NCBI GenBank assembly: GCA_031262285.1
Contig: JAISHZ010000348.1
Span: 1 to 17,951 of the forward strand
DNA from: Lachnospiraceae bacterium
GTDB taxonomy: Bacteria; Bacillota_A; Clostridia; Lachnospirales; Lachnospiraceae
DNA length: 17,951 bases
Reading direction: 5' to 3'
Shown in pieces: positions 1-17,951 of the stretch. Numbering within the stretch: the stretch's first letter is position 1; each line of letters begins with the position of its first letter. The notes below the pieces were generated by a model, which worked only from the letters and a program-made list of their open reading frames with translations, had not been told where the DNA came from and did not search any database. Both the position numbers and the translations under genes were made by a program.

Positions 1-139
1 CCCATCCACCCAGAGGCAGATAGTAAAAAATAAAACCGTAAATGACAAACCCAAGCGCCCAAAGAAGGAGAAAATTCTGCCTTTTTACTTCCTTCCATGT
101 GACCTTTTTGACTTTTGGATATTGTTTGACTTGTTTCAC
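1..139 (-). CDS. Sugar ABC transporter permease, LplB-type (N-terminal fragment)
   Basis: Only the first 46 codons are present; the gene runs off the left edge. It starts with GTG (137-139) behind an AGGAGA ribosome-binding site at 146-151. The translation is a basic cytoplasmic N-terminus (MKQVKQYPKVKKVTWKEVKR) followed by the first hydrophobic segment, ending in YYLPLGGW. In LplB-type permeases of complex-sugar ABC importers this first segment ends in a similar 'Y-x-P-x-x-G' motif. The gene lies directly downstream of a solute-binding lipoprotein gene, the usual partner. Its leader carries a diverged copy of the element also found before the phosphorylase and the 495-aa gene. The family call rests on a short fragment plus context. 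Confidence 0.72.
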   Translation of the reverse strand, partial: MKQVKQYPKVKKVTWKEVKRQNFLLLWALGFVIYGFIFYYLPLGGW

Positions 140-145
140 AATTTT

Positions 146-190
146 TCTCCTATGCGCGTCTAAGCGCGCCTACTAATCAGAGTGTTTGAA
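146..190 (-). promoter_or_regulatory. Leader element, copy A (diverged, 3' half only)
   Basis: Reading the minus strand, TTCAAACAC (182-190) is followed by CTGATT, a GCGCG/CGCGC stem (165-169 with 154-158) and GGAG, then the GTG start of the permease. The order and spacing match copies B (15118-15197) and C (17350-17428). The left arm of hairpin 1 seen in B and C is absent here. In the reading frame that is open in B and C, this copy has a TAG stop. That argues against selection on an encoded peptide. Confidence 0.5.
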
Positions 191-263
191 TATAATGCCC
201 TGAACGCCAACGGCGAGAATGGAACAAACAATGATATCCTAAGTGGATGTATATGCGTCATGA

Positions 264-304
264 TACTAGATTGTCCACGGTCATAGACCGTGGACAATCT
301 AGTA
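264..304. other. Perfect 18-bp inverted repeat between binding-protein and permease genes
   Basis: Arms at 264-281 and 287-304 are exactly complementary, with a 5-nt loop (282-286). No T-run follows on either strand, so it is not a canonical intrinsic terminator. It sits 41 nt past the stop of the solute-binding gene and 125 nt before the permease start. Such hairpins commonly protect the mRNA 3' end of the more abundant binding protein relative to the permease; that role is inferred here. A 9-nt match (317-325) to the end of the 15311-15618 foldback element lies nearby and may be chance. Confidence 0.7.
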
Positions 305-344
305 GGTACAGAATGTAATTGTAACCTATGCTTAAAAAACTTAA

Positions 345-1994
345 TTATTCTGTGTAGGTCGCCATAAAGTCGTCCAGAATCTGCTGCATCTCTGCAATGA
401 AGTCTTCCGGTTTGGTCTCTGCGTACAGATCCATATAAGTATCCCAAGCCGCGTCGAAGTCTTCTGCCATGATGACGATTGGTAATTGCTGATGTTTGAG
501 ATCATCCTGCAATTTCTTCGCAAGTCCTCCGGGAGATTCTACGGTCATAACACTGGACTTAGAGTACATCGGGAACCAAGGACCTGCTTTGTTTACAGAA
601 TTCAACATTTCGATATAGTTTGATGCATCATATGCAGCGAGGCAATTTACAAGCGGCTCTGCCATATCAGCTTGGAATACGCTGGTTTGCTCAGTCGGTT
701 GCATAGCGTTCTTGCCGTCTCTGGAAGTACCGTACCACATCGGGAAGTAGCTGTATGAGCACATATGAGAAGCGATGTAATTGGTGTCACCAGCTTGTTT
801 GATTTGATCTTCGGTACGATAGTACATTCCATCTTCGTCTACTTCGTAGTCAACACCTTCAACACCCCAGAAACGCAGGTCATGAACTTCTTGACCCAGT
901 AGATCGTTGATCATCTGGAAAGCGCCTTCGGGATCTTCACAGTCAACCGTAATCGCGATACCGCTAGCGGTATTCACAACGTCTGCGAGAGTACTCCACT
1001 GATTCTCCATCCCTGCTTCACGTGTGATCGGAAGGGGTACATAGTTACAGCCGATCAGATCCAATCCTTGCATCTTAAATACAGGATTGACTGTATTTGC
1101 GAAACACCACCACTGATCGCACATACCCAGAACTCGTCCGGTAGACATCTTTGCTAAGTATTCATCCTGTGTCTGTGTAGCGAACTCATCGTCGATCAGA
1201 CCTCTCTTCCAAGCGTCGTTGAGTGAACGGAACCAATACTCTGCGGTAGGAGTAATATTGTAATCAACAACAGTCTGTGTCTCAACATCAACGATAACAG
1301 AACCATCATTCGGATATCCGTCTAAGAATTCGGGCGGATTCTCGATCTGGAAATACAACCAATCTTGCATCATGGTAGAGTAAGGGATGACTTCCGAGCC
1401 ATCTTCCATCGTCGGATTCGCTTCTGCATAGCTTTCCAATAAATCAAAATATTGCTCTACAGTTTCGATCTTCGGATAATCTGCCCACTCTAAAACTCGA
1501 ACCTGGATCCAGAATGCTTCAGCGCTATGAGTCGTGGTTCTTCTCTCGCCGTAGCTGTTCTCAAAAGGATTCATCCAGTAGATCTTTCCGTCGTCTTGAC
1601 GGAATCTGTTCCATTCGGACTCGGTAAAGAATTCTTTGATGTTGGGATACTTGTCGATGTACTCATCCCAAGCGATCAAAGCGCCAGCTTGATACAAGTT
1701 GATCATAGCTTCACCGCCGTTGATAAAGTCGGGATATTCACCGAGTGCGATAAGCGTGTTGATCGCTTCGATATCGCTCTGTCCGGTAAGCCATGTCTCT
1801 TCGCATTCAGCACCAATCTTCTCGGCGATAATCTTCTTGATTTCGTTGTCCGAGGTAAGTTCGGGTTGCGTTACTGCAAAGAAAGCGGTAAATTTCTTAA
1901 CATTACCGCCACCGTTACTCTTCGCACAGCCTGCTAGTACAACAGCAGACAGCAATGTAACGGATAGTAAAACGAAAAGCTTTTTGAATCTCAT
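345..1994 (-). CDS. Extracellular solute-binding lipoprotein of a sugar ABC transporter (LplA-type)
   Basis: This 549-residue protein begins with a lipoprotein signal peptide: basic MRFKK, a hydrophobic core, then lipobox LAGC with Cys23 as the lipid-modified residue. A Gly/Asn linker follows. The body has the length and aromatic-rich character of the large LplA-type binding proteins of CUT1 complex-sugar importers. It would act outside the membrane and deliver an oligosaccharide to the permease encoded downstream. The ATG at 1992-1994 follows a GGGAGGT ribosome-binding site (2005-2011). A promoter (2038-2066) and a putative activator site lie upstream, next to a YesN-type regulator gene. The substrate cannot be read from sequence. 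No ATPase gene is visible; CUT1 importers often share a distant one. Confidence 0.9.
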   Translation of the reverse strand: MRFKKLFVLLSVTLLSAVVLAGCAKSNGGGNVKKFTAFFAVTQPELTSDNEIKKIIAEKIGAECEETWLTGQSDIEAINTLIALGEYPDFINGGEAMINLYQAGALIAWDEYIDKYPNIKEFFTESEWNRFRQDDGKIYWMNPFENSYGERRTTTHSAEAFWIQVRVLEWADYPKIETVEQYFDLLESYAEANPTMEDGSEVIPYSTMMQDWLYFQIENPPEFLDGYPNDGSVIVDVETQTVVDYNITPTAEYWFRSLNDAWKRGLIDDEFATQTQDEYLAKMSTGRVLGMCDQWWCFANTVNPVFKMQGLDLIGCNYVPLPITREAGMENQWSTLADVVNTASGIAITVDCEDPEGAFQMINDLLGQEVHDLRFWGVEGVDYEVDEDGMYYRTEDQIKQAGDTNYIASHMCSYSYFPMWYGTSRDGKNAMQPTEQTSVFQADMAEPLVNCLAAYDASNYIEMLNSVNKAGPWFPMYSKSSVMTVESPGGLAKKLQDDLKHQQLPIVIMAEDFDAAWDTYMDLYAETKPEDFIAEMQQILDDFMATYTE

Positions 1995-2037
1995 ACTCTT
2001 TGTTACCTCCCTATGTTAGTTGTCAATACCGTAACCA

Positions 2038-2066
2038 ATTATAGTATCCAAATCATGTCTCAGCAA
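2038..2066 (-). promoter_or_regulatory. Sigma-A-type promoter of the solute-binding protein gene
   Basis: On the minus strand, TTGCTG (-35, 2061-2066) and TATAAT (-10, 2038-2043) are separated by exactly 17 bp. The start codon is 44 nt past the -10 box. The weak -35 fits a promoter that needs an activator. Confidence 0.75.
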
Positions 2067-2097
2067 CCGGAAAAACTCTAGTCAAGTACCGGATAAA
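2066..2097 (-). promoter_or_regulatory. Putative AraC/YesN-type operator (22-bp-spaced direct repeat)
   Basis: Two near-identical 10-mers read on the minus strand, TTTATCCGGT (2088-2097) and TTTTTCCGGT (2066-2075), are exactly 22 bp apart. The promoter-proximal copy overlaps the first base of the -35 box. Direct half-sites two helical turns apart against a weak -35 are the classic arrangement for an AraC-family activator. The adjacent response regulator is the obvious candidate. The binding assignment is inference. Confidence 0.45.
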
Positions 2098-2112
2098 TTG
2101 CAGATGTTTTTG

Positions 2113-3717
2113 TCATCGTTTTCGATACTTAGCAGGTGTACATCCCTTTAGTGCGATAAATCTGGACACAAAGTAATCCATGTCTTTGTAACCCACTTCC
2201 TCTGCTACTTGGCTGATTTTATGATCGGTGCTGATCAGTTTGACTGCTGCCTCATTAATGCGATAATCATTCAGATAGTCTTTGAAAGAGCTGCCGAATT
2301 TCTTACGGAAGAGCTGACCCAAATAGGAACTGTTTATATAGTATTTCTTGCCCAGTTCTCTCAATGTCAGATTTTGATCGTAGTGCTCTTTGATTTCTCG
2401 CTCCACTTCCTGCAAAATTCCTGTGGAAACATTCTTACGCAAAGAGACCAAGTATTGCGCATATTCACAGGAAAACTTACGTAAATACGAAATGGTATTT
2501 CTCGCGATTCCGGAATCAAACACATTCTCTTCAATCCGTCTCATGATCTCTTGTTGATTGACACTTTCATCCTGTTTCACTGCCAAATGAATAAATTGAA
2601 ACATCAAGTAATTGATATTGATCGTCTCGCTTTCGCCAATCAATTCTTGCCGTTCCATCTCAAGGTAAAACTCATTTACACTACCATAAATTTGTTTTCT
2701 GTCATTGCGTTCTACCGCTGCTATGAGTTTGTCCAATGTTTCTTTCAAGATGACAATACCGGTCTGCGTCACTTGTACTTCATTTTCATAATAATAGAGA
2801 TGTTTTTCATCGTGAAATCCCCGAAATGATCGTAGAACGCACGCCGAACTGTATGACTTGGTGATCTGTTTTAATTCCTCAACCGGCTTCCCAACCAAGA
2901 CGACCACCGGTAGTGCGATGTCGCATTGGGCGGCATTCCATAGCGCCTCCAAATATTCGTCGGTACTGCTATGTCGCTTCTTTGCCAGTCCTTCGCTATA
3001 AATCAATCCGATCTCGTATTCATTTTGAAATCCCAATAAATCTTTCACGCAATGTGCTTGGTTATCGCCAAGGAATGTCCTTACGTTTTGGTACATCTGC
3101 AGCGTCATTGCTTCACATTCGTCATCGGACAGCTCTTCCAATTGCGCGATATTATCCAAGCTGATATGAATATACCGGATATCGGTAGTGAGCTGTAACT
3201 GCTTACGCAGAATGGCTTCTTCTTCCGGCGCATAGCGATTTTGGAGAAGCGCGGCTATATTTTGTTTCAGATAAGCTTCTTTCATCCGCGCATCGTCACG
3301 CAACCTGCGTTTTTCTCGATCGACCTTGTCCTGTACACGTGCCAAAACGTCTTGAAGACGTTCTCGGGTAAAAGGTTTCACCAAATAATCCATACACTCA
3401 TAGTGCCATGCGCACAATGCGGAAGCAAAATCTTCCGAGGTACTCATGACCACCACACAAGCGTCAGAAAGATGTTCGGTCTTGATGTGTTCCAATAATT
3501 GTAATCCGCCCAGTACAGGCATATGAATATCCGATATAATCAGATCCACATCCACTGTCCGCAGCAAATCAACTGCTTCTTGGCCGTTTCGAACCACATT
3601 TGTAATCTCATACCCCAGTGCTTCCCAATCAATTAAGACGATCAAGGTTTCCGCCCAACCTTGATCGTCCTCTACGATCATAACCTTCAATCGTCGTTCT
3701 TGATGCTCACTGCTCAT
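2113..3717 (-). CDS. Response regulator, receiver plus AraC-type DNA-binding domain (YesN-type)
   Basis: This 534-residue protein has an N-terminal receiver domain (about 10-130). It carries acidic residues E16-D17-D18, phospho-acceptor Asp63 in DLIISDIHMP, the switch Ser/Thr at 92-93, and Lys114 in the V-K-P-F motif. A long middle region (about 135-430) has no clear motif. The C-terminal ~100 residues form a double helix-turn-helix AraC domain ending P-A-K-Y-R-K-R. It would activate sugar-uptake genes when phosphorylated by a YesM-type histidine kinase, but no kinase gene is adjacent. The ATG at 3715-3717 follows AAGGAGT. The gene stops 118 nt before the solute-binding gene and probably controls it. 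Confidence 0.92.
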   Translation of the reverse strand: MSSEHQERRLKVMIVEDDQGWAETLIVLIDWEALGYEITNVVRNGQEAVDLLRTVDVDLIISDIHMPVLGGLQLLEHIKTEHLSDACVVVMSTSEDFASALCAWHYECMDYLVKPFTRERLQDVLARVQDKVDREKRRLRDDARMKEAYLKQNIAALLQNRYAPEEEAILRKQLQLTTDIRYIHISLDNIAQLEELSDDECEAMTLQMYQNVRTFLGDNQAHCVKDLLGFQNEYEIGLIYSEGLAKKRHSSTDEYLEALWNAAQCDIALPVVVLVGKPVEELKQITKSYSSACVLRSFRGFHDEKHLYYYENEVQVTQTGIVILKETLDKLIAAVERNDRKQIYGSVNEFYLEMERQELIGESETININYLMFQFIHLAVKQDESVNQQEIMRRIEENVFDSGIARNTISYLRKFSCEYAQYLVSLRKNVSTGILQEVEREIKEHYDQNLTLRELGKKYYINSSYLGQLFRKKFGSSFKDYLNDYRINEAAVKLISTDHKISQVAEEVGYKDMDYFVSRFIALKGCTPAKYRKR

Positions 3718-3772
3718 GAACTACTCCTTACACATACGACCTTCTTAACCACAAAACGAAAGGAACAGAATG

Positions 3773-3816
3773 TGAAAGTGCCATATTTACTGGTAATGGT
3801 AAATACGGCACTTTCA
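3773..3816 (-). terminator. Hairpin downstream of the tRNA, probable processing or termination structure
   Basis: Arms at 3773-3790 and 3799-3816 form an 18-bp stem with an 8-nt loop. The single non-Watson-Crick position is a G-U pair in minus-strand RNA but an A-C mismatch in plus-strand RNA, so the structure favours the minus strand, downstream of the tRNA. The T-run after it is weak, so some read-through into the response regulator gene is possible. I found no convincing promoter of the regulator's own. Confidence 0.5.
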
Positions 3817-3822
3817 TGCAAA

Positions 3823-3892
3823 GCAGACAACGGGAATCGAACCCGCCTCTCCAGCTTGGGAAGCTAGCATTCTACCAATGAACCATGTCTGC
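3823..3892 (-). tRNA. tRNA-Gly (anticodon CCC)
   Basis: The minus strand folds as a complete 70-nt cloverleaf. The acceptor stem pairs GCAGACA with TGTCTGC, the D-arm contains ATTGGTA, and the anticodon loop is TTCCCAA with anticodon CCC (reads GGG, Gly). The T-loop is TTCGATT. The 3' CCA is not encoded. A strong promoter lies 20 nt upstream and a long hairpin lies just downstream. Confidence 0.96.
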
Positions 3893-3911
3893 GAGGCGTT
3901 CAGATAAAAAA

Positions 3912-3940
3912 ATTATATCACGATTACTATGTTTTGTAAA
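3912..3940 (-). promoter_or_regulatory. Promoter of the tRNA-Gly gene
   Basis: On the minus strand, TTTACA (-35, 3935-3940) and consensus TATAAT (-10, 3912-3917) are separated by 17 bp. The mature tRNA 5' end is 20 nt downstream of the -10. Between here and 4073 I see only a weak 6-bp dyad (3998-4003 with 4012-4017). No T-rich terminator for the four-gene operon is evident. Confidence 0.85.
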
Positions 3941-4072
3941 TATCTCTTGTCTGGAATATTTAGGTTTATATTGCTATTCGGTATAGTCTTCGGCATTCAT
4001 AGCAGCAACACGCTATGCGATTTGGCGATTGCGACCCTTTGTATGGGATAGTGGTTGTGAATAGTAACAGGG

Positions 4073-5260
4073 TTATGCTTTCTTCGCAAAACTCTCGTGC
4101 AGTTCCTCTGCAAATTCCGGATAACGCTTTGCGATGTCAAGCAGTTCTTCTTGAATGCGGGAGGAACTTTGCGTCTGATCATCCATTTGTTTCCGTAAAG
4201 CTTGCCTGCGAATGATTAATTCGTGCCGTACCTCTACCATTTCCTTGGGATCCAGAATCGCAGATACTTGATGAATCCAACGCTGTGGCGTACGAATATG
4301 ATATTTACTCAAACGATCCACCAACTCGTGTTGATAATACGTTACTTTCGCTTCCGCTTCGGCAAACTGTCTGCGCTCTTCTCTTTCCTGCAAAAATGAT
4401 TTCCATTGCTTTTCCAAGACAGACGCTCGCTCGGTATGATATTTCAAGCGTAAATATTCCAGCAATTTCGTATTATTCGCATAGCGAATTTTCACCTTGT
4501 TCTGTAGCAAAATCAATCGATTGACCGCATTTTCCACTCGTTCAATTTCTGACTGAGCGTTTCTGTACTTGACACTAAAGACCACTATCGCAATCACTGC
4601 GCATATCACTGCGACGAAATACCCCACAAAGATCTCCATCTGAAGTGCAAACTGTAATACAAATAAAAGAAAAACACAGATGATCAGCGCAGTTAGGACG
4701 ATCACGGACATCCCTTTCAAGTTCGCAAGCATGGTATCTAATTCTTTGCCTCGGTACGCATAAGCGTGACGTTCCGCGTCTAAACGCTGCATATCCTGCT
4801 TTACCAATCTCTGGTAGCTCTCCGCTTCCTTCATTTTGCGGATACCATCCTCAATCTCTTCTTCCTGCTGGCTCATTCGCAAATATTCGCTCTCCGCCAT
4901 TCGATTCTTTTTTTCTCGATAGTCCCTTCGTTCCTTTTCAAATCCGCCGATCTTCCTGGCGATAAGTTCTAATGCTTCTTTGTCATCCGTCGGAAGCGCT
5001 TCCACTTCCTCCATATCTGCCAAGTAGGATGTGACGATGCCGTATTCATCAGTCAATTCTTCCATCACGAGTGCGTTTTCTTCCAGCAAAAGCAAAGCAT
5101 CTTCCAGAATTTTTTGTCGTTGTGCACTGTCCGTAAGATCAAAGTTCTCCGTGTGAATCATTTGATAGGTAAAATCATCTGTTTCTTCTATTCTATTACC
5201 TTTTCTTTTTCGCCCGAATAGATTGCGAAGTTTTGTCCAAATCTGCACTTTTATCACCAT
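4073..5260 (-). CDS. Coiled-coil membrane protein, last gene of the DUF5717/DUF5716 operon
   Basis: This 395-residue protein is of unknown function. A basic N-terminus (LRNLFGRKRKG) leads into a long Glu/Lys/Arg-rich helical region (about 45-180). Two adjacent membrane segments follow (about 184-206 and 209-231), joined by a very short turn. A second charged, probably coiled-coil region (about 235-305) and a soluble tail ending FAEELHESFAKKA complete it. Both coiled-coil arms therefore lie on the same side of the membrane, probably cytoplasmic. It is the fourth gene after the operon promoter, 60 nt behind the helical-repeat gene. The ribosome-binding site for the ATG at 5258-5260 is weak, so the next GTG codons are possible alternative starts. 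I infer a membrane anchor or scaffold for the other three products. Confidence 0.8.
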   Translation of the reverse strand: MVIKVQIWTKLRNLFGRKRKGNRIEETDDFTYQMIHTENFDLTDSAQRQKILEDALLLLEENALVMEELTDEYGIVTSYLADMEEVEALPTDDKEALELIARKIGGFEKERRDYREKKNRMAESEYLRMSQQEEEIEDGIRKMKEAESYQRLVKQDMQRLDAERHAYAYRGKELDTMLANLKGMSVIVLTALIICVFLLFVLQFALQMEIFVGYFVAVICAVIAIVVFSVKYRNAQSEIERVENAVNRLILLQNKVKIRYANNTKLLEYLRLKYHTERASVLEKQWKSFLQEREERRQFAEAEAKVTYYQHELVDRLSKYHIRTPQRWIHQVSAILDPKEMVEVRHELIIRRQALRKQMDDQTQSSSRIQEELLDIAKRYPEFAEELHESFAKKA

Positions 5261-5320
5261 CGCTTATTATGATTGTCACGAAACCGATTCTTTCTTATTA
5301 TATAGTGCAATTCTCTACGC

Positions 5321-6160
5321 CTATACTGATTCTGCGCGATAACGTTCTTTTAGTTCGCGTACTATGGAATCCCATACCGCCGTGTTTCTTTCCTCCATCC
5401 GCAATGTCTCCGCTCGATATTGCGTACTGCCTTGCCAATCGTGGCGAAGTTGTTCCATTCGCCTTTCCACAGAAAGAGAGATGGTATAATATTCCGGATG
5501 TTCGGCGATAAACGCAATATAATCCTCTTCTTGTTTGTCCAAACGGATCGCCGCCAGATATGAAAAGAGACATTCGGTAGAACCGCCTGCTTCGTATGCG
5601 TCCAAAAAACTTTGTGCCGCTTCCGGATAACGCATCAACATCGCATAAGCAACTCCTTGATTATGAAGAAGGTTCTGTAAGAAAGGAGATGCCAAGTTGC
5701 TCTCCCCCGTGTTCGTAATCGCCATCTCCTGCTGCCATTCTCGCTGTATTTCATCGTACAACGCAAGCGCTGTCACATATCGCTTCTTTTGAGCAAGACT
5801 ATTCGCACGCAAAATGGCGCGTTCATAACGATTTCTACCCTCCCCTTTCCGCAAAACCTCGGCTATCGCTGTTACGATATCAGTGTCATAGAAACCCGTG
5901 TATTCCAATATCGTAACCACATATTGCCGGAGCGAACCTTGCCCTGCGACCAGCGATGACAGGCTTTTCGCCAAATCAACCAGTCGGCATTCATTGCGAA
6001 TCCACAAGATGACTTCCTGTGACATAAGGGAATCATCCAACAGAAAAGCGTTCTCTTTTATCACATAACACAGTTCTTCCACACAGTATACCTGTGCTTC
6101 GAGACTTTCGATTCTCAAAGGATTTTCAGCGTAATGTCCAACACAAACCAAAATCGCCAT
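5321..6160 (-). CDS. Helical-repeat (TPR-like) protein of the DUF5717/DUF5716 operon
   Basis: This is a 279-residue soluble protein of unknown function. The chosen ATG (6158-6160) has an AGGAGCG ribosome-binding site and leaves a 25-nt gap to the preceding gene. The in-frame ATG 12 codons upstream overlaps that gene and lacks such a site. The N-terminus (NPLRIESLEAQVYCVEELCY, about 13-32) resembles, from memory, a small-protein family that travels with DUF5717 genes. Residues about 112-205 have a TPR-like pattern of paired amphipathic helices, including ANSLAQKKRYVTALALYDEI and NQGVAYAMLMRYPEAAQSFL. The tail is highly charged. I infer an adaptor role within the operon's complex. Confidence 0.8.
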   Translation of the reverse strand: MAILVCVGHYAENPLRIESLEAQVYCVEELCYVIKENAFLLDDSLMSQEVILWIRNECRLVDLAKSLSSLVAGQGSLRQYVVTILEYTGFYDTDIVTAIAEVLRKGEGRNRYERAILRANSLAQKKRYVTALALYDEIQREWQQEMAITNTGESNLASPFLQNLLHNQGVAYAMLMRYPEAAQSFLDAYEAGGSTECLFSYLAAIRLDKQEEDYIAFIAEHPEYYTISLSVERRMEQLRHDWQGSTQYRAETLRMEERNTAVWDSIVRELKERYRAESV

Positions 6161-6185
6161 AATCGCTCCTATCTGTTCGGTCGCC

Positions 6186-7406
6186 CTACAATTCAATCGT
6201 TTCCCGATAAATCTTCGTATCGGGAGCTTGTAATTCTCCTAAACCCAAATCACGCACCTCAACGCACAGTATATTGTGTGCATTCATGGTTAATACCATG
6301 CTGATCCTCGTGCAATCTTGTTCTCCCTGCGTTAATGTCATCTTCTCCATATGTGCATTTTTGCCATTTAGTGGTGCGATCATAAACGGAAGATCGCGGT
6401 CACCTTGGAGGTAAAATTCATAGCTGCGATTCACTTCGTACCAAGGGATACCGGCGTCTAAAAGCGCATAATAAGCGATTTTTCCTCTCTCTTTCACTTT
6501 AAGTCCGACATTTGCTTTTAAGACATCTTTTTTTAAAAATACAGCACTGTCATCACCGCTCGTTAGTTGACGCAATAGACTATAGCATGCACCTTTTGAA
6601 AATAGATTGGTTCCTTGAAACACCCTTCTGCCTACGCATAAAAATCGAAGCGCCTCTTTCATAATCGTTGGATCATGGTTTTCACCTATCAAGAAAACTG
6701 CGGTGATCCTTCTGCCTTCCGTCATTCTCTGCAACGCGGGTATGAAGTCTTCTTGTGTTTCTTGCAAATAGGTTTCTTCTTGTACATAAAAGACTTTCGG
6801 CTTAGTCCGCGCATTGTTCATCATATGATACGCTTCCATTCGCTGTTCTCGGTAATCACACAGCAAGCATTCCATAACAGAAAGCTCCTCCGGTTGTCGC
6901 CTCAGATACTCAAAAAAGCTTTCTTCATATTCTTGAAAAGAAAAAGTACAGCCTTTCATGTCCAGACCTTGCGTCGCTTGCAGTAAGACTTCGCGATGCG
7001 TCGCCTCCATCTGTTTCGAGGTAAATTGAATGGCGACGATTTTTGCGGAAGGTGCTGCGAAGTTTAATAAACCAAGACTTCTTTTGATAAAGAGCGTTAA
7101 CAGTGCGATTGGGTCATATTCCGTTTCTTCCACCAAGATTCGCTCTCCCAGGTTTGCTCGTTTCCACAAAAGATCGATCAAGATCCCCCCTGCCTGAGCG
7201 TGCTTGACCGCATCTTGACCAAAGGTCCATCTGTTTTCTCCCTCTTGTTTGCACAATACCATAGGAATGAGAAAACTGTCGGATCCGATCGCACCGGGCA
7301 ATGTGTCCGGTTCAGCTGTTGGTTGTGTCGCAAAACAATAGCTAATCTGTGCAGTGGTTTCCCCGATGTCATACCCAATCATCACTCTATCGCCGCGTAA
7401 ACCCAT
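6186..7406 (-). CDS. Actin/Hsp70-fold-like protein, DUF5716-type
   Basis: This is a 406-residue protein. The ATG at 7404-7406 follows AAAGGAG and sits 22 nt after the previous stop. The frame is open 35 codons further upstream, but that stretch overlaps the preceding gene and lacks a ribosome-binding site. Residues 13-18 (DIGETT) match the phosphate-1 loop of the actin/Hsp70/hexokinase fold. A phosphate-2-like strand (LLCDYREQ, 181-188) and an adenosine-like loop (FLIGENHD, 238-245) follow, both lacking the usual glycine pairs. TNLFSKGACY (266-275) is a motif I associate with DUF5716-type proteins. A beta-rich C-terminal domain (about 300-406) loosely resembles the Hsp70 substrate domain. Nucleotide binding may be altered or lost. 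Its likely partners are the neighbouring DUF5717-type and TPR-like proteins. Confidence 0.8.
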   Translation of the reverse strand: MGLRGDRVMIGYDIGETTAQISYCFATQPTAEPDTLPGAIGSDSFLIPMVLCKQEGENRWTFGQDAVKHAQAGGILIDLLWKRANLGERILVEETEYDPIALLTLFIKRSLGLLNFAAPSAKIVAIQFTSKQMEATHREVLLQATQGLDMKGCTFSFQEYEESFFEYLRRQPEELSVMECLLCDYREQRMEAYHMMNNARTKPKVFYVQEETYLQETQEDFIPALQRMTEGRRITAVFLIGENHDPTIMKEALRFLCVGRRVFQGTNLFSKGACYSLLRQLTSGDDSAVFLKKDVLKANVGLKVKERGKIAYYALLDAGIPWYEVNRSYEFYLQGDRDLPFMIAPLNGKNAHMEKMTLTQGEQDCTRISMVLTMNAHNILCVEVRDLGLGELQAPDTKIYRETIEL

Positions 7407-7428
7407 TTGTTCTCCTTTGTGCTCACAC

Positions 7429-11118: not shown

Positions 11119-11168
11119 GCCCACCCTCCGCACAAGGTATTCCTGCATTCATTGTCTGTTTTAGAAGC

Positions 11169-11197
11169 AGTATAGCAGATTTTGGTGGGGTGGGCAA
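11169..11197 (-). promoter_or_regulatory. Promoter of the four-gene DUF5717/DUF5716 operon
   Basis: On the minus strand, TTGCCC (-35, 11192-11197) and TATACT (-10, 11169-11174) are separated by exactly 17 bp. It lies in the 85-nt gap between the hydrolase stop codon and the DUF5717-type start, giving a leader of about 45 nt. All four downstream genes follow with short gaps (22, 25 and 60 nt), which supports one transcript. Confidence 0.7.
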
Positions 11198-11203
11198 TAC
11201 TGA

Positions 11204-11839
11204 CTACGCGCTTTTGGGAACCATCGCATTCGCATATTCGAGGCCAAGTCCATAAGCACCGCCGTGCTGCTGCAAGAGCGTTGTGACCGCTTGGTAGGTC
11301 TCTTGATTCGCCCAGTCTCGTTGCAATTCCAAGGTAAGTGCCTGCCACGTGACCGGCTTCACACCGGCTTGTATCATTCTCTGCATAGCCATTTGGTGCG
11401 CTTGCTTAGTGCTTCCGGCGGAAGCGTCTGCTACACAATATACTTCATAACCGTCTTCAATTGCGGACAATGCGGGTAATGTGACGCATACTTCTGTCCA
11501 CAATCCTGCTATGATCAGTTTTTTTCTGCCTGTCTGTTGAACTGCTCTTTTGAAATTCATATCTTCCCACGCATTGAGGGATGTTCGATCAATCGGCATG
11601 ATCTTCGGATGAACCGACTGTACCATACTCACAAGAGGTCCTGAAAACTGTCTGGCTTCAACGGTACTTAATACAATCGGAATATCAAATACCTTTGCGG
11701 TTTTGGCAAGAGCGGTTACGGCATTTAATACGGAAGTACGGCAATCACTTTCCACGCCAAAAAACATCTGCGGCTCATGATCAATTAACAATATCGCGAC
11801 CTGTGTGGGGTCAAGTAAGGATTTGGAATACCCTCTCAT
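11204..11839 (-). CDS. Isochorismatase-family cysteine hydrolase, YcaC-like
   Basis: This 211-residue cytosolic enzyme has the isochorismatase/nicotinamidase fold. The catalytic Asp20 is in LLIDHEP and the nucleophile Cys118 is in GLWTEVCVTLPALSAIEDGY, a motif typical of the YcaC-like branch. TSLNAWED (86-93) and a preceding Arg85 lie in the region where the third, basic active-site residue is expected. YcaC-like enzymes are amidohydrolase-like and their physiological substrate is generally unknown. The ATG at 11837-11839 follows AAAGGAG; a longer reading of the frame would run through the upstream hairpin. It follows the small Asn-rich ORF, with a strong hairpin in the gap. It is probably not part of the DUF5717 operon, which has its own promoter. 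Confidence 0.9.
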   Translation of the reverse strand: MRGYSKSLLDPTQVAILLIDHEPQMFFGVESDCRTSVLNAVTALAKTAKVFDIPIVLSTVEARQFSGPLVSMVQSVHPKIMPIDRTSLNAWEDMNFKRAVQQTGRKKLIIAGLWTEVCVTLPALSAIEDGYEVYCVADASAGSTKQAHQMAMQRMIQAGVKPVTWQALTLELQRDWANQETYQAVTTLLQQHGGAYGLGLEYANAMVPKSA

Positions 11840-11855
11840 GAATGCTCCTTTCGTT

Positions 11856-11896
11856 ACAAGCAGCCACCTGCCTGCAAAGGCAAAGTGGCTGCTTGT
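11856..11896 (-). terminator. Stem-loop with nested inner hairpin between the small ORF and the hydrolase gene
   Basis: A 12-bp stem (11856-11867 with 11885-11896) closes over 17 nt, within which GCCT and AGGC can form a small inner hairpin. It follows the small ORF stop and ends just before the hydrolase ribosome-binding site. The downstream T content is poor (TTGTAACG). It may be a weak terminator or attenuator, or an mRNA-stabilising structure. Confidence 0.5.
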
Positions 11897-11913
11897 CAAT
11901 CTGTGTTTTCGTC

Positions 11914-12057
11914 TTAATTTTCGTTTTTGGAACAGTTTTTGCTCTGATTCTGATTCTTGTTCTGACTAGACTGATTGTTTTTGTTGCTGTTCTGACTCGG
12001 ACTGCAGTCTGTAGAGCCACTTTTGGACTTGTTGTCGTAATTTTGGTTGTTAGCCAT
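11914..12057 (-). CDS. Small Asn/Ser/Lys/Gln-rich protein, 47 residues
   Basis: The ATG (12055-12057) is preceded by a near-perfect AGGAGGAG ribosome-binding site (12064-12071), which makes this a convincing small gene. The protein starts MANNQNYDNKSKSGSTDC and is low-complexity, with almost no hydrophobic residues and two cysteines (18 and 42). Similar tiny hydrophilic proteins occur in Clostridia and are sometimes suspected of being spore-associated; I have no motif to confirm that. It would be intrinsically disordered. A strong stem-loop follows the stop codon. Confidence 0.72.
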   Translation of the reverse strand: MANNQNYDNKSKSGSTDCSPSQNSNKNNQSSQNKNQNQSKNCSKNEN

Positions 12058-12158
12058 TTCAAACTCCTCCTATAGGTTGTTTTTGTTTACAGGAGTAGTT
12101 TTCGCATATTTTTCCGAATTATGCAGCATTTTTCAGTGACTTTAGTACTATTTTCGCT

Positions 12159-12590
12159 TCATTTTCGCAAGATCCGATTGATGTACACAATCAGTACCAA
12201 CAGCAAGAGGATCGGCAATATGATCCGGAAAACGGAAAATGCAAATCGAAAGAACACGTAAAGAAGCAATACTTGTAAAGGGAGCCAAATCCAAAGAGGA
12301 AAACGGGTATTTGTCCGTTTCTTCTTTTGAAAATTTTTATGAAAATCCGGTTCGTCGCTACGTGCTTTTTCATAAAATGTCTTTTGATGAAAATCCACTT
12401 TCTGCGTATCAATGATGGTTCTGGCAAGAAGTCTGGGATCCCCCAATTCTTCCAAGACTTCTTTTTGTGTTTTCCCTGCTTTTACTTGATCGTGAATGTA
12501 TTCTTCATAATACCGAATATTCTCGTGAATCAGTTTTGACGGAATCGCTCCGTTTAAGGCAACACGTAATTGATCAATGAACTCTTTCAC
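12159..12590 (-). CDS. HAAS/DUF1700-like membrane protein
   Basis: This is a 143-residue protein. The GTG start (12588-12590) directly follows AAGGAGGGAGGC. An ATG ten codons upstream is in frame, but its codons are made up of the ribosome-binding site itself. The N-terminal half (KEFIDQLRVALNGAIP, then IRYYEEYIHDQVKAGKTQKE and VLEELGDPRLLARTII) is the helical HAAS domain of DUF1700-type proteins. The C-terminal half holds two hydrophobic segments (about residues 96-115 and 119-137). HAAS proteins usually sit beside a PadR-type repressor and take part in signalling or membrane stress; no PadR gene is present here. It lies 88 nt downstream of the phosphorylase gene. Confidence 0.82.
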   Translation of the reverse strand: MKEFIDQLRVALNGAIPSKLIHENIRYYEEYIHDQVKAGKTQKEVLEELGDPRLLARTIIDTQKVDFHQKTFYEKARSDEPDFHKNFQKKKRTNTRFPLWIWLPLQVLLLYVFFRFAFSVFRIILPILLLLVLIVYINRILRK

Positions 12591-12614
12591 GCCTCCCTCC
12601 TTTTTGTTCTTTCG

Positions 12615-12634
12615 CCGCACAAATCACAGTGCGG
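12615..12634. other. Short inverted repeat between the phosphorylase and HAAS genes
   Basis: CCGCAC (12615-12620) pairs with GTGCGG (12629-12634) across an 8-nt loop. There is no T-run, so termination between the two genes is uncertain and co-transcription is possible. Confidence 0.3.
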
Positions 12635-12678
12635 ATGAATAAGTGGCTTTGTCAGAGAACGAATCCTTCGCTCGCGTT

Positions 12679-15111
12679 TTACATAACTACTTCAACATGG
12701 ACGATGGTTTTCGTCTCATCAAACGGGGCGACATTGCCCTGTATCGGTACACCGTCCACCTTCATGGACGTAACACCGGATTCCTTGCCGGAAGGATTGC
12801 TCACCGATATCTGATATTCGACTCCTCGGAATGAGCGCGTCACGGTGTAGTCGCCAAAATCTTTGGGCAGACAGGGGTTGATTTGCAATCCCGCGTGTGT
12901 GGGTGTGATACCCAAGAGATATTGCGATATATTGACAAATGTCCAAGCAGCAGTTCCGGTCAACCAACTATTTTTGGCTTCCCCATGACGAGGAGCATCC
13001 TTTCCTGCCACCATTTGCGAATAAACATACGGTTCCGTGCGGTGAATCTCACTGATTTCTTCCAAATAAGAAGGACACGTCTTTTGATAGATCTCAAAAG
13101 CACGACTCCCTCTACCCAAGACCGTTTCGGCAATCGACACCCACGGATTGTTGTGACAAAAGATTCCTGCGTTTTCTTTATAACCGGGCGGGTAAGAGGT
13201 AACCTCTCCAAGCTCTACATGATAACGAGTATAAGCAGGTTGCAGCAGCATGATTCCGTATTGGGTATCCAAGCGTTCTTTCACGGAGTCCAAAGCACGC
13301 TTTGCCAAGCCTTGGCTCACACCGACACCCGCCATCACGCAAAATCCTTGTGGTTCGATAAAGATCTGCCCTTCCTCACACTCTTTGGATCCTACTTTGT
13401 GACCATATGCATCATATGCTCTCAAAAACCATTCGCCGTCCCAACCGCTTCTTAGGATCGCCTCGTCCATCAAGCGAACTTCCTTGCGCGCACGCGTTGC
13501 TTCCTCGTGATCACCTATCCGTTCGCTCAGCAGCGCGTACTCCTCCCCATACTTGACAAACATCCCCGCGATAAAGACAGACTCTGCAACCGGTCCTTCA
13601 CTAGGTCCGAATGTCTGGAAGGATTCCCCCGGTTCTTCCGAGAAGCAATTGAGATTCAAACAATCATTCCAATCTGCTCTGCCGATGAGCGGGAGATCAT
13701 GAGGTCCTTTATGCGTCACGATATATTCGAATGAACGGTGCAAGTGCTCCATGAGCGGCACTGCTTTGGTCACATCGCTGTCAAAGGGTACCATCTCCTC
13801 CAAAATCGAAAAATCACCCGTTTCACGAATATAGGCGCTTGTCCCGGCGATCAGCCAAAGAGGATCATCATTGAATCCACCGCCGATATCCGCGTTTCCC
13901 TTTTTGGTCAGCGGTTGGTATTGATGATAAGCACTCCCATCTTCAAACTGTGTACTGGCGATATCCAGTATCCTCTCCCGCGCTCGATCCGGGATTAAAT
14001 GCACGAAACCGAGCAAGTCTTGGCAAGAGTCACGAAATCCCATCCCTCTGCCGATACCTGATTCATAATAAGATGCAGAACGCGACATATTAAATGTCAC
14101 CATGCATTGATATTGATTCCACACATTCACCATGCGATTGACATGATCGTTCTTTGAAGATATCCGATATTTTGACAACAAACTTTCCCAATACTTTTGC
14201 AACCGTGCAAATGCTTGCGCAATATCTGTGTCCGTCCGATACCTCGAAAGCAATTCGGTGGCAGGCTTTTTATTGATCACATCCTGCGCTTCCCATTTAT
14301 TTGATCTGTCATTTTCTACATAAGCCAACACAAAAATGAAAGTCTTCGTTTCTCCAGGTGCCAGTGACATAGAGATATGATGAGAAGCGATCGGCGACCA
14401 ACCGCTTGCAAGTGTATTGGAGAGTTTTCCTTTTTTGACTGCTGTAGGCGTATCAAACCCTTCGTAGGCACCCAAAAAAGCTTCCCTATCCGTTTCAAAC
14501 CCATCTACTGTTGTATTTACCGAAAAGACCGCATAATGATCGCGACGTTCCCGATATTCTGTCTTATGATAGATATCGCTGCCGCATACTTCCACTTCTC
14601 CTGTGCTGTAATTGCGTTGGAAATTCTTCATATCGTCGTCAGCGTTCCACAAGCACCATTCCACGAAGGAAAAAAGAGAAATCGACTTTTCCGTGGTTCC
14701 TTGATTGGTTAGGGAAAGCTGCGTGACTTCGCAATTGTCGTCCATCGGAACAAATTGAAGGATCGCCGCTTCCAATCCATCTTTGGAGGAGCGAAAACGA
14801 CTGTAACCCAACCCATGGCGGCATTCAAATGTGTCCAGTTTCGTTCGCGTCGGTTGCCAAGTCGGATTCCAGATCGAATCTCCCTCTTTGAGGTAAAAAT
14901 ATTTTCCTCCGCAATCAGTCGGTATCGAGTTGTACCGGTACCGTGTCAAGCGAAGTAATTTCGCATCTTTATAGAAGGAATATCCGCCTCCCGTATTGGA
15001 TAAAATCGAAAAAAAGTCTTTGTTCCCCAAGTAGTTCATCCACGGAAGTGGTGTCTTGGGAGTGGTAATCACGTATTCCTTCGCGGCATCGTCAAAATAT
15101 CCAAATTTCAT
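12679..15111 (-). CDS. Cellobiose phosphorylase (GH94)
   Basis: This 810-residue cytosolic enzyme splits cellobiose with phosphate into glucose 1-phosphate and glucose, saving one ATP relative to hydrolysis. It lacks a signal peptide. The N-terminal beta domain opens [20 protein letters not shown] and contains [31 protein letters not shown]. The (alpha/alpha)6-barrel carries [13 protein letters not shown] and [15 protein letters not shown] (477-491), where D483 is the expected general acid. The DCLNLNCFS context and total length match cellobiose phosphorylase better than cellodextrin or chitobiose phosphorylase. The ATG (15109-15111) follows GGGAG; the frame extends 8 codons further but without a site. 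It has its own promoter and a structured leader (copy B). Confidence 0.93.
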
Positions 15112-15117
15112 CGTTTG

Positions 15118-15197
15118 CTCCCGTCTGCGCGCCAATGGCGCGCGTACAAATCAAGGCGTTTGAAAGTTCATTTACTTTCAAACTTGCGGTCTCCTTT
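15118..15197 (-). promoter_or_regulatory. Leader element, copy B, before cellobiose phosphorylase
   Basis: On the minus strand the order is: an early Shine-Dalgarno AAAGGAGA (15190-15197); hairpin 1, GTTTGAAAGT/ACTTTCAAAC (15174-15183 with 15158-15167, 10 bp, 6-nt loop); the linker GCCTTGATT; hairpin 2, GCGCGCC/GGCGCGC (15127-15143, 7 bp, 3-nt loop); then the gene's own GGGAG (15118-15122). A TTG at 15179-15181, eight bases after the early Shine-Dalgarno, opens a 29-codon frame that overlaps the phosphorylase start and stops at 15092. Copy C has the same layout. Regulation by folding or translational coupling is inferred. Confidence 0.65.
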
Positions 15198-15244
15198 ACA
15201 AGATTGTATCGTTGTGCTTTTGGGTTCCTGTTGAGTACATTCGC

Positions 15245-15273
15245 ATTATACCGATTTGATTGATGAATGGCAA
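15245..15273 (-). promoter_or_regulatory. Promoter of cellobiose phosphorylase
   Basis: On the minus strand, TTGCCA (-35, 15268-15273) and consensus TATAAT (-10, 15245-15250) are separated by exactly 17 bp. Transcription would start near 15238, placing the whole leader element within a 5' untranslated region of about 125 nt. Confidence 0.78.
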
Positions 15274-15348
15274 CGCAAATAATTGTGAGAATCCTTGTAA
15301 CGGAGATGTCGTTACAATTCACGGGTTCGCTGATCTACACTTAAAAGC

Positions 15349-15414
15349 GGTGTATCCCGGACGAACCAGGGGGGCAGTCCTCTACGTCAAGGACGGTGTA
15401 TCCCGGACGAACCA
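15349..15414 (+). repeat. 20-bp direct repeat inside the foldback element
   Basis: GGTGTATCCCGGACGAACCA occurs identically at 15349-15368 and 15395-15414, a period of 46 bp. This left segment has no counterpart in the right half of the element, so the foldback is asymmetric, possibly from a local duplication. Confidence 0.85.
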
Positions 15415-15476
15415 AAGAGAGTAGGGGACAGTTTTGGGTGTTAGACTCTCTGGGCGTTCCGATGAGCCCGAGCAGC

Positions 15477-15508
15477 AAAAATGAGCGCACAAGCAAGCGC
15501 TCATTTTT
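15477..15508. terminator. Bidirectional terminator-like hairpin at the centre of the foldback element
   Basis: AAAAATGAGCGC (15477-15488) pairs perfectly with GCGCTCATTTTT (15497-15508) over an 8-nt loop. The A-run before and T-run after the GC-containing stem give terminator form on both strands. It would stop transcription leaving the 495-aa gene. Confidence 0.6.
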
Positions 15509-15856
15509 ACTTGGTCTCATCTCCACAGAACGTATAACACCCAAAACTGTCCCCTACTCTCTTCGGTTCTGTGCATTGAGAAGCGCTAAACGTAATCTCT
15601 GAACCCATGAATTGTAACCACCCTAGTATAAACGTTTTCAATTATCTTTCTGTTTCCGCTCAAAACGCTTGAGCGTATTACCGTGATACGGTCAACTTAT
15701 AACTTTAAGTTAATTAAATTCATTCATACTAGTATAACGTCTTTGAATTAGCTGGACTAATATCGAATCATATGATGGAGCAACAACGCATATGAATATG
15801 CAGTCTTCAGATATCTTTGGTTTTGTATGAAGTCCAGATAATTGCAAATCTCTGTA

Positions 15857-17344
15857 CTAGTCAGAAATCATTGGGTAGTTACGATTTAATTGGCATAATA
15901 ATTCCTTATTTAATGCAATGTCCATGTTTTTGATTTCATTTATTAACTGAATCATCTTTGTGTTAGCGTCGTTATATGGTTTATGTCTATTTTTAATCAA
16001 AATATTTACTATATATTGGCACTTTTCTTTGAAAATCTGATATTGTTTTTGCAATGACTCATAGGTGTTCTGATTGATATACTTTCGTACAAATAGGAAT
16101 TTTAATCTTTCATACATAATAACGCTATGTTCGTATAGCATATAGCTAATTCGGAGATCTGAAGCAATCCTTTCCATCCACTCCGGCTTTACTAATTCCT
16201 CATAGATCTTCACACCAAAAATACCGGTTGACGGATTTGACATTGCTGCATACTTTTTACTGGTGTTGATTCCATTTAGATATTCTTCCGTCGCTTCTAT
16301 AAAAAATTGAATATCAAATTCATATACGGTTTCATCCGGCTGATAATAAATCAAGTATGCAATTTTGTTGTTCGCTTCTTTATAGGATAAAACTACATCT
16401 GAAAACGAAATCGTTGAAACAGTTGGTATCCCCATATAATTGTTTATCACATAGAAAACTTCATCTTCTGTATCATAACCAAAAAACAAATTATCATGAT
16501 AATATTCAAAGCTAAGATAAGCTAGTGATTTGCAACCATAGTACTCGTTCAAGTAGATCTCGATGTATTTGTGATCATCAATGAACTTCATTAGCTCATT
16601 CACGATTGTATGGGGATAGAAATACGTTCTATTGTATAGAAGTAATGGATTGTTGTGGAAATTTCTATGATCACGCAAAGGTCCTCTGTACCAATCCAGA
16701 GGTCTTTGTACATTGGTGGGCATATAGAGTTGCGTAAAATTCGAGTACAGCCAATTAAAGTACTGGTTACTTGGAGAACGAACAAAAATACCAATTTGAT
16801 ATCCATTGAAGGATCCACTATCGATCTGTTCCATGCACAGATCGCCAAAATAAAGATTGAGTTTATCCTCTTGTCGCGTAATCGTTAATTGCTTTGGTCT
16901 GTTTTGCAGGTTAGCGATAAAATGGTCTTTAAAGGAATGTTGATCTTCAAAAAATAAACCACGTGTACAATTCAAACCAAAATAGAACACAACATCATCG
17001 TAATTTTGCTTGCATACAAATACACCTAGACTTGACCATGGATTAAAGTATGTTTGCGTAAGAATATCGACAGTAAGTTCATCCTGAAGATGTAGTTCTC
17101 GAAACAAATACAATTCGACACCTTCTATATATGGGTCCGTTTTGGTAATAACAGTATCGTTTTCGACAACGTATTGTGCATTATGCGTATGTACCGTCCA
17201 ATCAGACTTATCATAATCTCTTATGTTCATACGCGCAACTACGTCACTGCATGTGCTTTCCAAATGACATATCAACTCAAAATACATATGCGATGAATAC
17301 GATCTGATCATCGGATGCTCATTAATCGGTAACATTTTCTTCAT
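15857..17344 (-). CDS. Protein with putative beta-sandwich plus BtrH/C39-peptidase-like region
   Basis: This is a 495-residue protein with no signal peptide. Residues about 40-208 alternate strands and turns like a concanavalin-type beta sandwich (WSSLGVFVCKQNYDDVVFYF, SFNGYQIGIFVRSPSNQYFN). Residues about 214-350 resemble the papain-like fold of BtrH-type acyltransferases and C39 peptidases: EIYLNEYY, then YYHDNLFFGYDTEDEVFYVI (281-300) with His283 as candidate catalytic residue. I see no obvious Cys nucleophile in the usual N-terminal position. The C-terminal helices (IFGVKIYEELV, YMLYEHSVIMYERLKFL) fit the same family from memory. Related proteins occur in peptide or natural-product gene clusters. 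The gene is visibly more AT-rich than its neighbours. The ATG (17342-17344) follows GGGAG, but the frame is open through the leader to a TTG at 17411-17413. Confidence 0.55.
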   Translation of the reverse strand: MKKMLPINEHPMIRSYSSHMYFELICHLESTCSDVVARMNIRDYDKSDWTVHTHNAQYVVENDTVITKTDPYIEGVELYLFRELHLQDELTVDILTQTYFNPWSSLGVFVCKQNYDDVVFYFGLNCTRGLFFEDQHSFKDHFIANLQNRPKQLTITRQEDKLNLYFGDLCMEQIDSGSFNGYQIGIFVRSPSNQYFNWLYSNFTQLYMPTNVQRPLDWYRGPLRDHRNFHNNPLLLYNRTYFYPHTIVNELMKFIDDHKYIEIYLNEYYGCKSLAYLSFEYYHDNLFFGYDTEDEVFYVINNYMGIPTVSTISFSDVVLSYKEANNKIAYLIYYQPDETVYEFDIQFFIEATEEYLNGINTSKKYAAMSNPSTGIFGVKIYEELVKPEWMERIASDLRISYMLYEHSVIMYERLKFLFVRKYINQNTYESLQKQYQIFKEKCQYIVNILIKNRHKPYNDANTKMIQLINEIKNMDIALNKELLCQLNRNYPMISD

Positions 17345-17349
17345 TTTTT

Positions 17350-17428
17350 CTCCCTTCTGCGCGCCAACAGCGCGCGTCCCAATCAAGGTGTTTGAAAGTT
17401 CACTTTCTTTCAAACTTATCCTCTCCCC
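17350..17428 (-). promoter_or_regulatory. Leader element, copy C, before the 495-aa gene
   Basis: On the minus strand the order is: an early Shine-Dalgarno-like GGGGAGAGG (17420-17428); hairpin 1, GTTTGAAAG/CTTTCAAAC (17407-17415 with 17390-17398); CACCTTGATT; hairpin 2, GCGCGC/GCGCGC (17359-17375, 5-nt loop); then GGGAG (17350-17354) and ATG. The TTG-initiated frame is in phase with the gene here, so a form extended by 23 residues is possible. In copy B the same frame is out of phase with its gene. Confidence 0.65.
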
Positions 17429-17849
17429 TATGTGGTAAAAATCGTTAAGTGGCTATAAGTAAAAACACTGATGTGAACTTGTTAATGAAATAAACAGCAT
17501 AAATAAATTCGCATTTGCTAACCTTTAGTGCCTTATTTCATCCATAGCACATAATTAACAGGATGTTATTAATGTTTACTTGTTTTGTATTATTAACCTC
17601 CATTTTATCGCCCCCTTTTTTGAAATGACTTTTTTCCATAGTATTTCGTTCGTTGGCAAGCTTTCTGCTTGATTCGCAATAGCCTTACTTAATGCCGGAA
17701 TCGAAAATACCAATGAATCAAATCCATTCTCTTCAGTAAATGATTACGCTCCATTTTCTTTATTTTGGTACTATTATTCCTTATTTTAACGCATATGTTT
17801 ATATTATGTCAACTCCTGTAGTATTTTTTGTTATTTTTGGATTACAATT
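17429..17849. other. AT-rich intergenic stretch with fragmentary ORFs
   Basis: No full-length gene is supported in these 421 bases. On the minus strand, a 21-codon ORF (17538-17603, MEVNNTKQVNINNILLIMCYG) has a GGGGGCG sequence shortly before its ATG. A 55-codon open stretch without a start (17576-17743) contains NGFDSL, reminiscent of an acyl-carrier-protein attachment site but with a helix-breaking proline soon after. I see no convincing promoter for the 495-aa gene. The stretch may be degenerate DNA. Confidence 0.4.
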
Positions 17850-17951
17850 TTTACAATTCAAGCGTTCGCCGATCTACGTTTATCGCTTATCGATATACAG
17901 AACCGAACAGAGTAGGGGACTGTTTTGGGTGTTATACGTTCTGTGGAGATG
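17850..17951. mobile_element. Foldback / MITE-like REP element, copy 2 (cut by window end, inverted)
   Basis: The first 28 bases match the left end of copy 1 at 24 positions (TTACAATTCA, then GATCTAC). From ACGTTTATCGC onward the sequence follows the reverse complement of copy 1's right half, including CAGAACCGAACAGAGTAGGG and GTTATACGTTCTGTGGAGAT. The copy is therefore inverted relative to copy 1. The pair brackets the 495-aa gene. Confidence 0.7.

Follow-up and report, generated by a model that had tools for sequence, protein, structure and literature searches.

Three copies of a two-hairpin sequence, here termed A, B and C, precede three unrelated genes in a 17,951-nt stretch of Lachnospiraceae DNA (assembly GCA_031262285.1, contig JAISHZ010000348.1, positions 1 to 17,951), which is referred to as the window. 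The sequence is probably a short, non-coding mobile hairpin repeat of the Lachnospiraceae that inserts between the native Shine-Dalgarno (SD) sequence of a gene and its start codon, and that carries a replacement SD. Mobility is suggested by the genomic pattern, which combines many copies, paired stems, a constant register with start codons, filled and empty orthologous sites, near-identical copies in unrelated flanks, and tandem arrangements. The window copies A, B and C would thus represent three insertions of the element.

All three copies lie on the minus strand of the window. Copy B (15114-15194) is complete and ends 2 nt before the start codon of a cellobiose phosphorylase gene of family GH94, and copy C (17346-17426), also complete, ends 1 nt before the ATG of a 495-aa orphan protein. 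Copy A (about 141-190) precedes the GTG of a sugar permease gene and retains the 3' half only, hairpin 1 having been lost. B and C are 84% identical across 81 nt. A profile built from these two copies alone scored A at 20.4 bits. After masking of B and C, 299 of 300 dinucleotide shuffles of the window gave some match, the best reaching 15.7 bits. The two-hairpin fold predicted for B and C has z scores of -3.0 and -3.3, respectively, and none of 200 shuffles equalled either. In copy B, hairpin 1 spans 15158-15183 on the minus strand, with TTGAAA in its 5' arm and an unpaired probability of 0.0 for the TTG, and hairpin 2 spans 15127-15143 (GCGCGCC/GGCGCGC). The corresponding hairpins of copy C lie at 17390-17415 and 17359-17375, the latter containing one U-G pair by pair counts. 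Folding of A alone is unremarkable (z -0.15; 87 of 200 shuffles as good), with about five pairs of hairpin 2 retained. Hairpin 1 of B was also returned as terminator-like in a consensus scan, at a chance-level rate (one found, 0.5 in shuffles).

These results bear out an earlier sequence-only reading of the window, which had described one two-hairpin element before three unrelated genes, with both hairpins shared by B and C and only the 3' half kept in A. The positions that it gave stand as well, the ends of B and C being displaced by 2-4 nt. It had further noted a C-G pair in B that becomes U-G in C; this proved to be the sole difference between the two copies at paired positions. The three window copies alone therefore give no covariation, and the covariation evidence stems solely from copies outside the window.

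Such copies were sought with two covariance models, the first built from A, B and C and the second from loci that had been fetched and that gave 81 matches. These include one reverse-strand artefact, which was retained in the model and excluded from position counts. Copies B and C were included in building both models, which score them at 105 and 106.1 bits (first model) and at 75.2 and 72.8 bits (second model). At E ≤ 1, the first model matched 13 of 20 genomes in a set picked mainly by a DUF5717 match, and 34 of 61 genomes in the genus of G039, the best match reaching E ≤ 1e-5 in 21 of the 61; genomes G017 and G039 are present in both sets. The highest load at this threshold was 42-43 matches in a single genome, some of them in tandem. 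With the second model, 12 genomes out of 38 that have named records gave matches at E ≤ 1e-3, including 27 in Roseburia sp. NALB_7963_7, 29 in one Acetatifactor record, and 6 each in Lachnospiraceae COE1 and 1xD42-87. At the same threshold there were none in five Butyrivibrio, two Lacrimispora, one Gemmiger and one Pygmaiobacter record, nor in Roseburia porci, another uncultured Roseburia record (L004) and another Acetatifactor record (L021). The spread within the Lachnospiraceae is thus patchy. The second model also returned no match at E ≤ 1e-4 in 119 genomes of the Gemmiger family, with 40 candidates scored per genome, and none of 80 loci around GH94 homologues carries the element. One search of viral contigs gave 10 loci, a number near chance by estimate; further viral contig searches and plasmid searches gave zero matches. 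Rfam 15 returned tRNA only for the window at the gathering threshold, and at E ≤ 1 nothing matched at the element in 20 short-form and 13 other, mostly long-form, loci. T-box-like leaders scoring under the Rfam cut-off were seen near two of the long-form loci (L299:1216-1428 and L309:624-991).

The element occurs in two forms, a short form of about 60-80 nt with two hairpins and a long form of about 95-110 nt. Two-sided changes were found at 13 of the 16 pairs of the short-form stems across the 81 rows, a count flattered by an alignment fitted to the structure, with compensatory changes still visible in the printed alignments. Pairing is retained in 97.5% of cells, compared with 85.3% after shuffling, and is abolished when one arm is shifted. 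The middle of hairpin 1 (TGAAA) is near-invariant and its ends vary. A comparison of G.U with A.C mismatches as a test of the folded strand gave 49 to 22 overall and 17 to 13 when two end pairs were set aside; as the G.U excess shrinks in this way, the strand test does not decide between RNA and single-stranded DNA.

The long form was revealed by the second model in genomes G385 (labelled Acetatifactor) and G395, where it has a body of 92-93 nt; shorter copies of 51 and 81 nt occur in these genomes too. Identical long-form bodies account for 11 of 22 copies in G385, where the flanks differ, and for 5 of 6 in G395. The directly preceding dinucleotide is AA in all 28 long-form copies of the two genomes, some of which sit behind another copy, and beyond the AA only an SD-like purine stretch is conserved in the left flank. 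The right end of the element, in its short and long forms together, carries an SD, in the form of GGGGTATAA, GAGGTATAA or GGGAG, and the long-form right end GAGGTATAA itself resembles the SD-like left flank. The two ends of the long form, GATTGAAA and GAGGTATAA, are not inverted copies of each other; a 2-nt duplication of the AA may still accompany insertion. In 12 long-form sequences, a candidate pseudoknot is paired in 93.9% of cells, compared with 92.6% after shuffling (7 of 500 shuffles as good), with three two-sided pairs (5 of 500), which is suggestive only.

The position of short-form copies was counted on 75 rows, i.e. the 81 rows less the three window copies, the one reverse match and two matches at contig ends; the loci had been drawn from the top of score lists and not by position. 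ATG, GTG or TTG is found at -1 to +3 of the 3' end in 69 of the 75, compared with 23% of random positions, and ATG in 48 (10% of random positions). An open reading frame (ORF) of at least 60 aa, or one open at the contig end, starts at -1 to +4 in 47 of the 75, the random expectation being 10.6%. With a 50-aa cut, and outside genome G278, 41 copies are at a start, 4 stand before a hairpin 1 and 13 are placed otherwise. For the long form, a left-end pattern search of G385 found 38 left ends, 34 of them exact. Among the 31 whole long copies, an ATG follows that opens an ORF of 50 aa or more in 20 and a shorter ORF in 3, the next copy follows in 6, and neither follows in 2; the left ends outside the 31 comprise one cut by a contig end and 6 that were uncounted. 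At right ends not followed by a tandem copy, ATG lies 6-7 nt past the GAGG of the element in 23 of 25 cases. An independent set is provided by contigs from human faeces, which were deposited as unverified phage but may be bacterial. The long form is present in 18 such records, and all 10 loci fetched from these precede an ATG. The covariance-model scan that the sequence-only reading had proposed as a check has thus returned further copies, mostly at start codons and with covarying stems. Together with the start-codon register, these favour the last of the three options that it had listed, a dispersed repeat supplying translation start regions.

Orthologous sites were compared for nine genes found downstream of copies: secA, gyrA, trmD, purA, yhbY, murF, a dUTPase-like gene, guaA and porC, which are unrelated to one another. 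The gene identities have Pfam support, which for guaA goes no further than glutamine amidotransferase and for murF no further than Mur ligase; other gene names were assigned from N-termini. For seven of the nine genes a single locus is filled and the others are empty. By the second model, the element is present at 1 of 20 secA loci tested (30 fetched), at 1 of 21 loci each for guaA and trmD, at 1 of 16 gyrA loci with one further weak match (20 bits), and at the start of 1 of 12 purA loci, a second purA locus matching about 240 nt upstream. For porC and the dUTPase-like gene, 1 of 10 loci is filled in each case, both in G385. The porC start reads CAGAAAGGATGAAACAAAA-ATG at the empty site of G317 and CGGAAAGGATGAA, element, AAAAA-ATG at the filled site of G385. 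At yhbY, G385 carries two long copies and G313 a short copy (38 bits), with none in five congeners; at murF, a long copy in G385 is accompanied by a weak short match in G324 (20.5 bits), with none in five others.

The GH94 locus of the window fits the same scheme. An SD core is found at -20 to -4 in 60 of the 62 GH94 homologues whose starts could be located (18 of 80 could not). The window reads TTGTAAAGGAGACCGCA, element B, ATGAAATTTGG, and the element-free homologue L042 reads GTAAAGGAGAATTGCGT-ATGAAATTCGG. The flank GTAAAGGAGA upstream of B matches the native ribosome-binding site of homologues such as L042, which places B between the native SD and the start codon. The native SD of the GH94 gene (AAAGGAG, 15191-15197, minus strand) is thus upstream of B, and the same motif stands directly before the ATG in element-free homologues; the SD supplied by the element (GGGAG) lies at 15118-15122 on the minus strand. 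Further upstream, a promoter-like site, TTGCCA-17-TATAAT (15245-15273, minus strand), has 11 of 12 consensus matches, and B is therefore probably inside a transcribed leader. Placement between a native SD and the start codon, and what looks like mobility, go beyond the sequence-only reading.

A possible mechanism follows from this geometry. The element would insert on the sense strand of the gene about 1-3 nt ahead of the start codon, leaving the native SD and its spacer upstream. The left neighbour at the target would typically be a purine-rich, SD-like stretch ending in AA. As the right end recreates a site of the insertion type, further copies could land behind an existing one and produce tandem arrays. 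Hairpin 1 would bury a TTG, GTG or ATG otherwise lying next to the native SD, the SD of the element would stay open, and translation would move to it; the host gene would then still be translated and the insertion tolerated. The predicted accessibility is consistent with this, the median unpaired probability being 0.01 for the hairpin 1 TTG/GTG/ATG (32 copies) and 0.62 for the element SD (33 copies). Mobilisation would presumably occur in trans, by some enzyme that acts on hairpins in the manner of the single-stranded DNA (HUH) transposases. We tentatively suggest that the element may exemplify a selfish class whose target is the translation initiation region itself (SD and start codon), recognised possibly in mRNA or in single-stranded form, and whose insertion restores a functional ribosome-binding site. 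The different subfamilies at the yhbY start, long in G385 and short in G313, would be independent landings and fit real targeting rather than survivorship.

Several observations weigh against the mobile-element interpretation. The constant register could reflect selection for a workable SD spacing instead of a choice of target. Placement at start codons is not universal, since of 17 copies in G278 (50-aa cut) 6 are at a start, 2 stand before another hairpin 1 and 9 are placed otherwise, and several start close to a stop codon upstream, with another hairpin following. Genomes G017 and G363 (loci L154 and L176) share one copy at the same gene with near-identical flanks, which may be read as inheritance, but which a conserved leader would also produce. 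The congeners have diverged, so that exact breakpoints are estimated and not read directly, and in secA of G352, where another hairpin lies upstream, the left flank may differ from its ancestral state. Predicted openness of the element SD, 0.81 in copy C, is only moderate in copy B (0.38). No mobilising enzyme was found: of 28 copy-bearing genomes, many of which are draft assemblies, 9 have a Y1 transposase (PF01797), several of the genes being broken. Twelve fetched transposase loci contained a single weak element match (20.6 bits). As a partner, the Y1 transposase is thus unconvincing across the 28 genomes. Nor was an autonomous parent seen in G385, the one genome examined, where among the 32 left ends read the lone one lacking a right end is cut by the contig end.

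Other hairpins accompany the element in some genomes. In G278 (L138-L151, L099), other modules are chained before or after it, e.g. CAAATTTG..CAAATTTG ending TTGGAAGCATGGGGATTAG; as these also end in an SD-like sequence, several families of start-site hairpins may exist. A hairpin of the form ATATCGCA..TGCGATAT-GCAGG adjoins the element upstream in L178 (secA of G352) and downstream in L172. At L292:1642-1726, the short-form linker is apparently split by another hairpin (AAGAGGGGTGTTTACACACCCTCTT), a repeat within a repeat.

The sense-strand position in the 5' leader and the strong covariation of pairs are also what a cis-regulatory leader RNA, bound by a small molecule as a riboswitch or by a protein, would show, with A, B and C as three members of a regulon. 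The probable promoter upstream of B, the presence of both a sugar permease and GH94 among the window genes, and the copy common to two genomes at the same gene would fit such a leader. Nevertheless, SecA, gyrase A, tRNA m1G methyltransferase, adenylosuccinate synthetase, YhbY, Mur ligase and dUTPase share no function, a gene filled in one species is empty in most others tested, copies form tandem arrays, and no Rfam family was found at the element. A regulon leader is therefore quite unlikely, and the suggestion of the sequence-only reading that the element is a cis-regulatory RNA in the usual sense is not borne out, given functionally unrelated downstream genes and mostly element-free orthologues in congeners. 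Its second suggestion, an operator dyad, would make hairpin 1 a palindromic site for a transcription factor. Hairpin 1 is indeed a near-perfect palindrome in B and C, but its sequence varies while pairing persists, the two hairpins, linker and SD move as a unit, and the position tracks the start codon, making an operator highly improbable. That the copies reflect chance similarity of ribosome-binding sites, or a duplication limited to this contig, is barely credible: they do share one contig, and purine-rich SDs look alike everywhere, but the shuffle control for copy A, the many covarying model matches elsewhere, and the absence of matches in the 80 homologue loci and in the 119 genomes of another family argue otherwise, and the copies in other genomes already refute it.

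A translational relay, in which the native SD starts a mini-ORF at the hairpin 1 TTG, GTG or ATG, seems unlikely too. The ribosome would open the hairpins, stop near the element SD and restart at the gene start, so that expression would be coupled or attenuated. The native SD lies at a suitable distance, the putative start begins with T in 59, G in 13, A in 5 and C in none of 77 aligned rows, and in 14 of 76 anchored copies (a few anchors being misplaced) the mini-ORF terminates 2 nt ahead of the next start. On the other hand, peptide and frame are unconserved, some mini-ORFs entering the gene in frame and others ending about 35 nt earlier; the codon changes between B and C are mostly non-synonymous, the putative start is buried in a stem, and the missing C rests on few independent lineages. 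A conserved mini-peptide is likewise unsupported, as sequence and frame differ between copies.

Taken as a mobile repeat, the element can be compared with known systems, of which it behaves most like REP-type or IS200/IS605-derived repeats. REP elements and REPINs are described as short, palindromic, extragenic and multi-copy, sometimes clustered, and presumed to be mobilised in trans by TnpAREP (RAYT), which is guided by a conserved tetranucleotide, mostly GTAG, at the palindrome foot (PMC6006769, PMC8266576). The present element is likewise short, palindromic, extragenic, multi-copy, sometimes clustered and presumably trans-mobilised. In 80 short-form rows, the tetranucleotide at the foot of hairpin 2 is GTAT in 42, GTAC in 12, GTAG in 1 and another sequence in 25, and the foot of hairpin 1 ends in AA in 54. 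GTAT or GTAC, together 54 of the 80, is one base from the REP motif, and this proximity keeps an HUH enzyme in play. Unlike REP, the element has GTAG itself in a single row, has two distinct hairpins in a fixed order, is sense-oriented and tied to start codons, and is accompanied by a Y1 transposase in only the minority of carriers given above. In the IS200/IS605 scheme (PMC6006769), hairpins lie inside the ends, the ends are not inverted, and insertion takes place next to a short left-flank motif. By our own comparison, a non-autonomous derivative would resemble the element in having hairpins within non-inverted ends and a right end similar to the left-flank motif. The differences are that conservation of the left flank is limited to AA and an SD-like stretch, that the target is a ribosome-binding site, and that G385 yielded no parent element.

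The pneumococcal repeats BOX, RUP and SPRITE are small interspersed repeats with predicted RNA folds, clusters and mutual insertion, BOX and RUP having terminal inverted repeats and target duplications (PMC3049150). The element is likewise a small Gram-positive interspersed repeat that is predicted to fold as RNA, clusters and shows mutual insertion; in contrast, its ends lack the terminal inverted repeats of BOX and RUP, which would mark a DDE-type MITE, and the passages of PMC3049150 consulted mention no tie to the gap between SD and start codon. With GTAG and inverted ends missing and the target apparently new, the element is not placed in any named family, and a limited search of the open-licence literature found no description of such an element.

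Small repeats are usually thought to persist where they are inert. The element occupies one of the most sensitive positions of a gene, between SD and start codon, in secA and gyrA among others, and is apparently tolerated through the translation start signals that it provides. Real targeting would amount to a new insertion preference in which start codons serve as a safe harbour for mobile DNA, and would make the element a supplier of new 5' leaders to common gut bacteria as well as a natural set of portable ribosome-binding-site hairpins. More generally, when a covarying paired leader precedes many genes, it is not necessarily a riboswitch-like regulator.

The genes downstream of the window copies are all on the minus strand. 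The sugar permease gene after A starts with GTG at 139 and continues beyond the window edge. The GH94 gene after B (12679-15111, ATG at 15111) encodes a protein with Pfam GH94 domains at E 8.6e-167 and 1.1e-87. The gene after C (15857-17344, ATG at 17344) encodes the 495-aa orphan. Neither Pfam, queried with a version extended by 23 aa at its start, nor NCBIfam gave a match for the orphan, and among 5.8 billion proteins searched the sole hit was the window protein itself. The DUF5717 protein of the window has matches in 295 of 299 genomes of the family of G017, a record labelled Roseburia, the best at 45% identity; this places the window in the Lachnospiraceae, where it had no close relative among the genomes compared. 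A second repeat family, with direct and inverted arms of 32-77 nt that are 84-91% alike, is present at 15409-15452, 15526-15569, 15518-15594 and 17851-17951, i.e. between the GH94 and 495-aa genes and at the window end.

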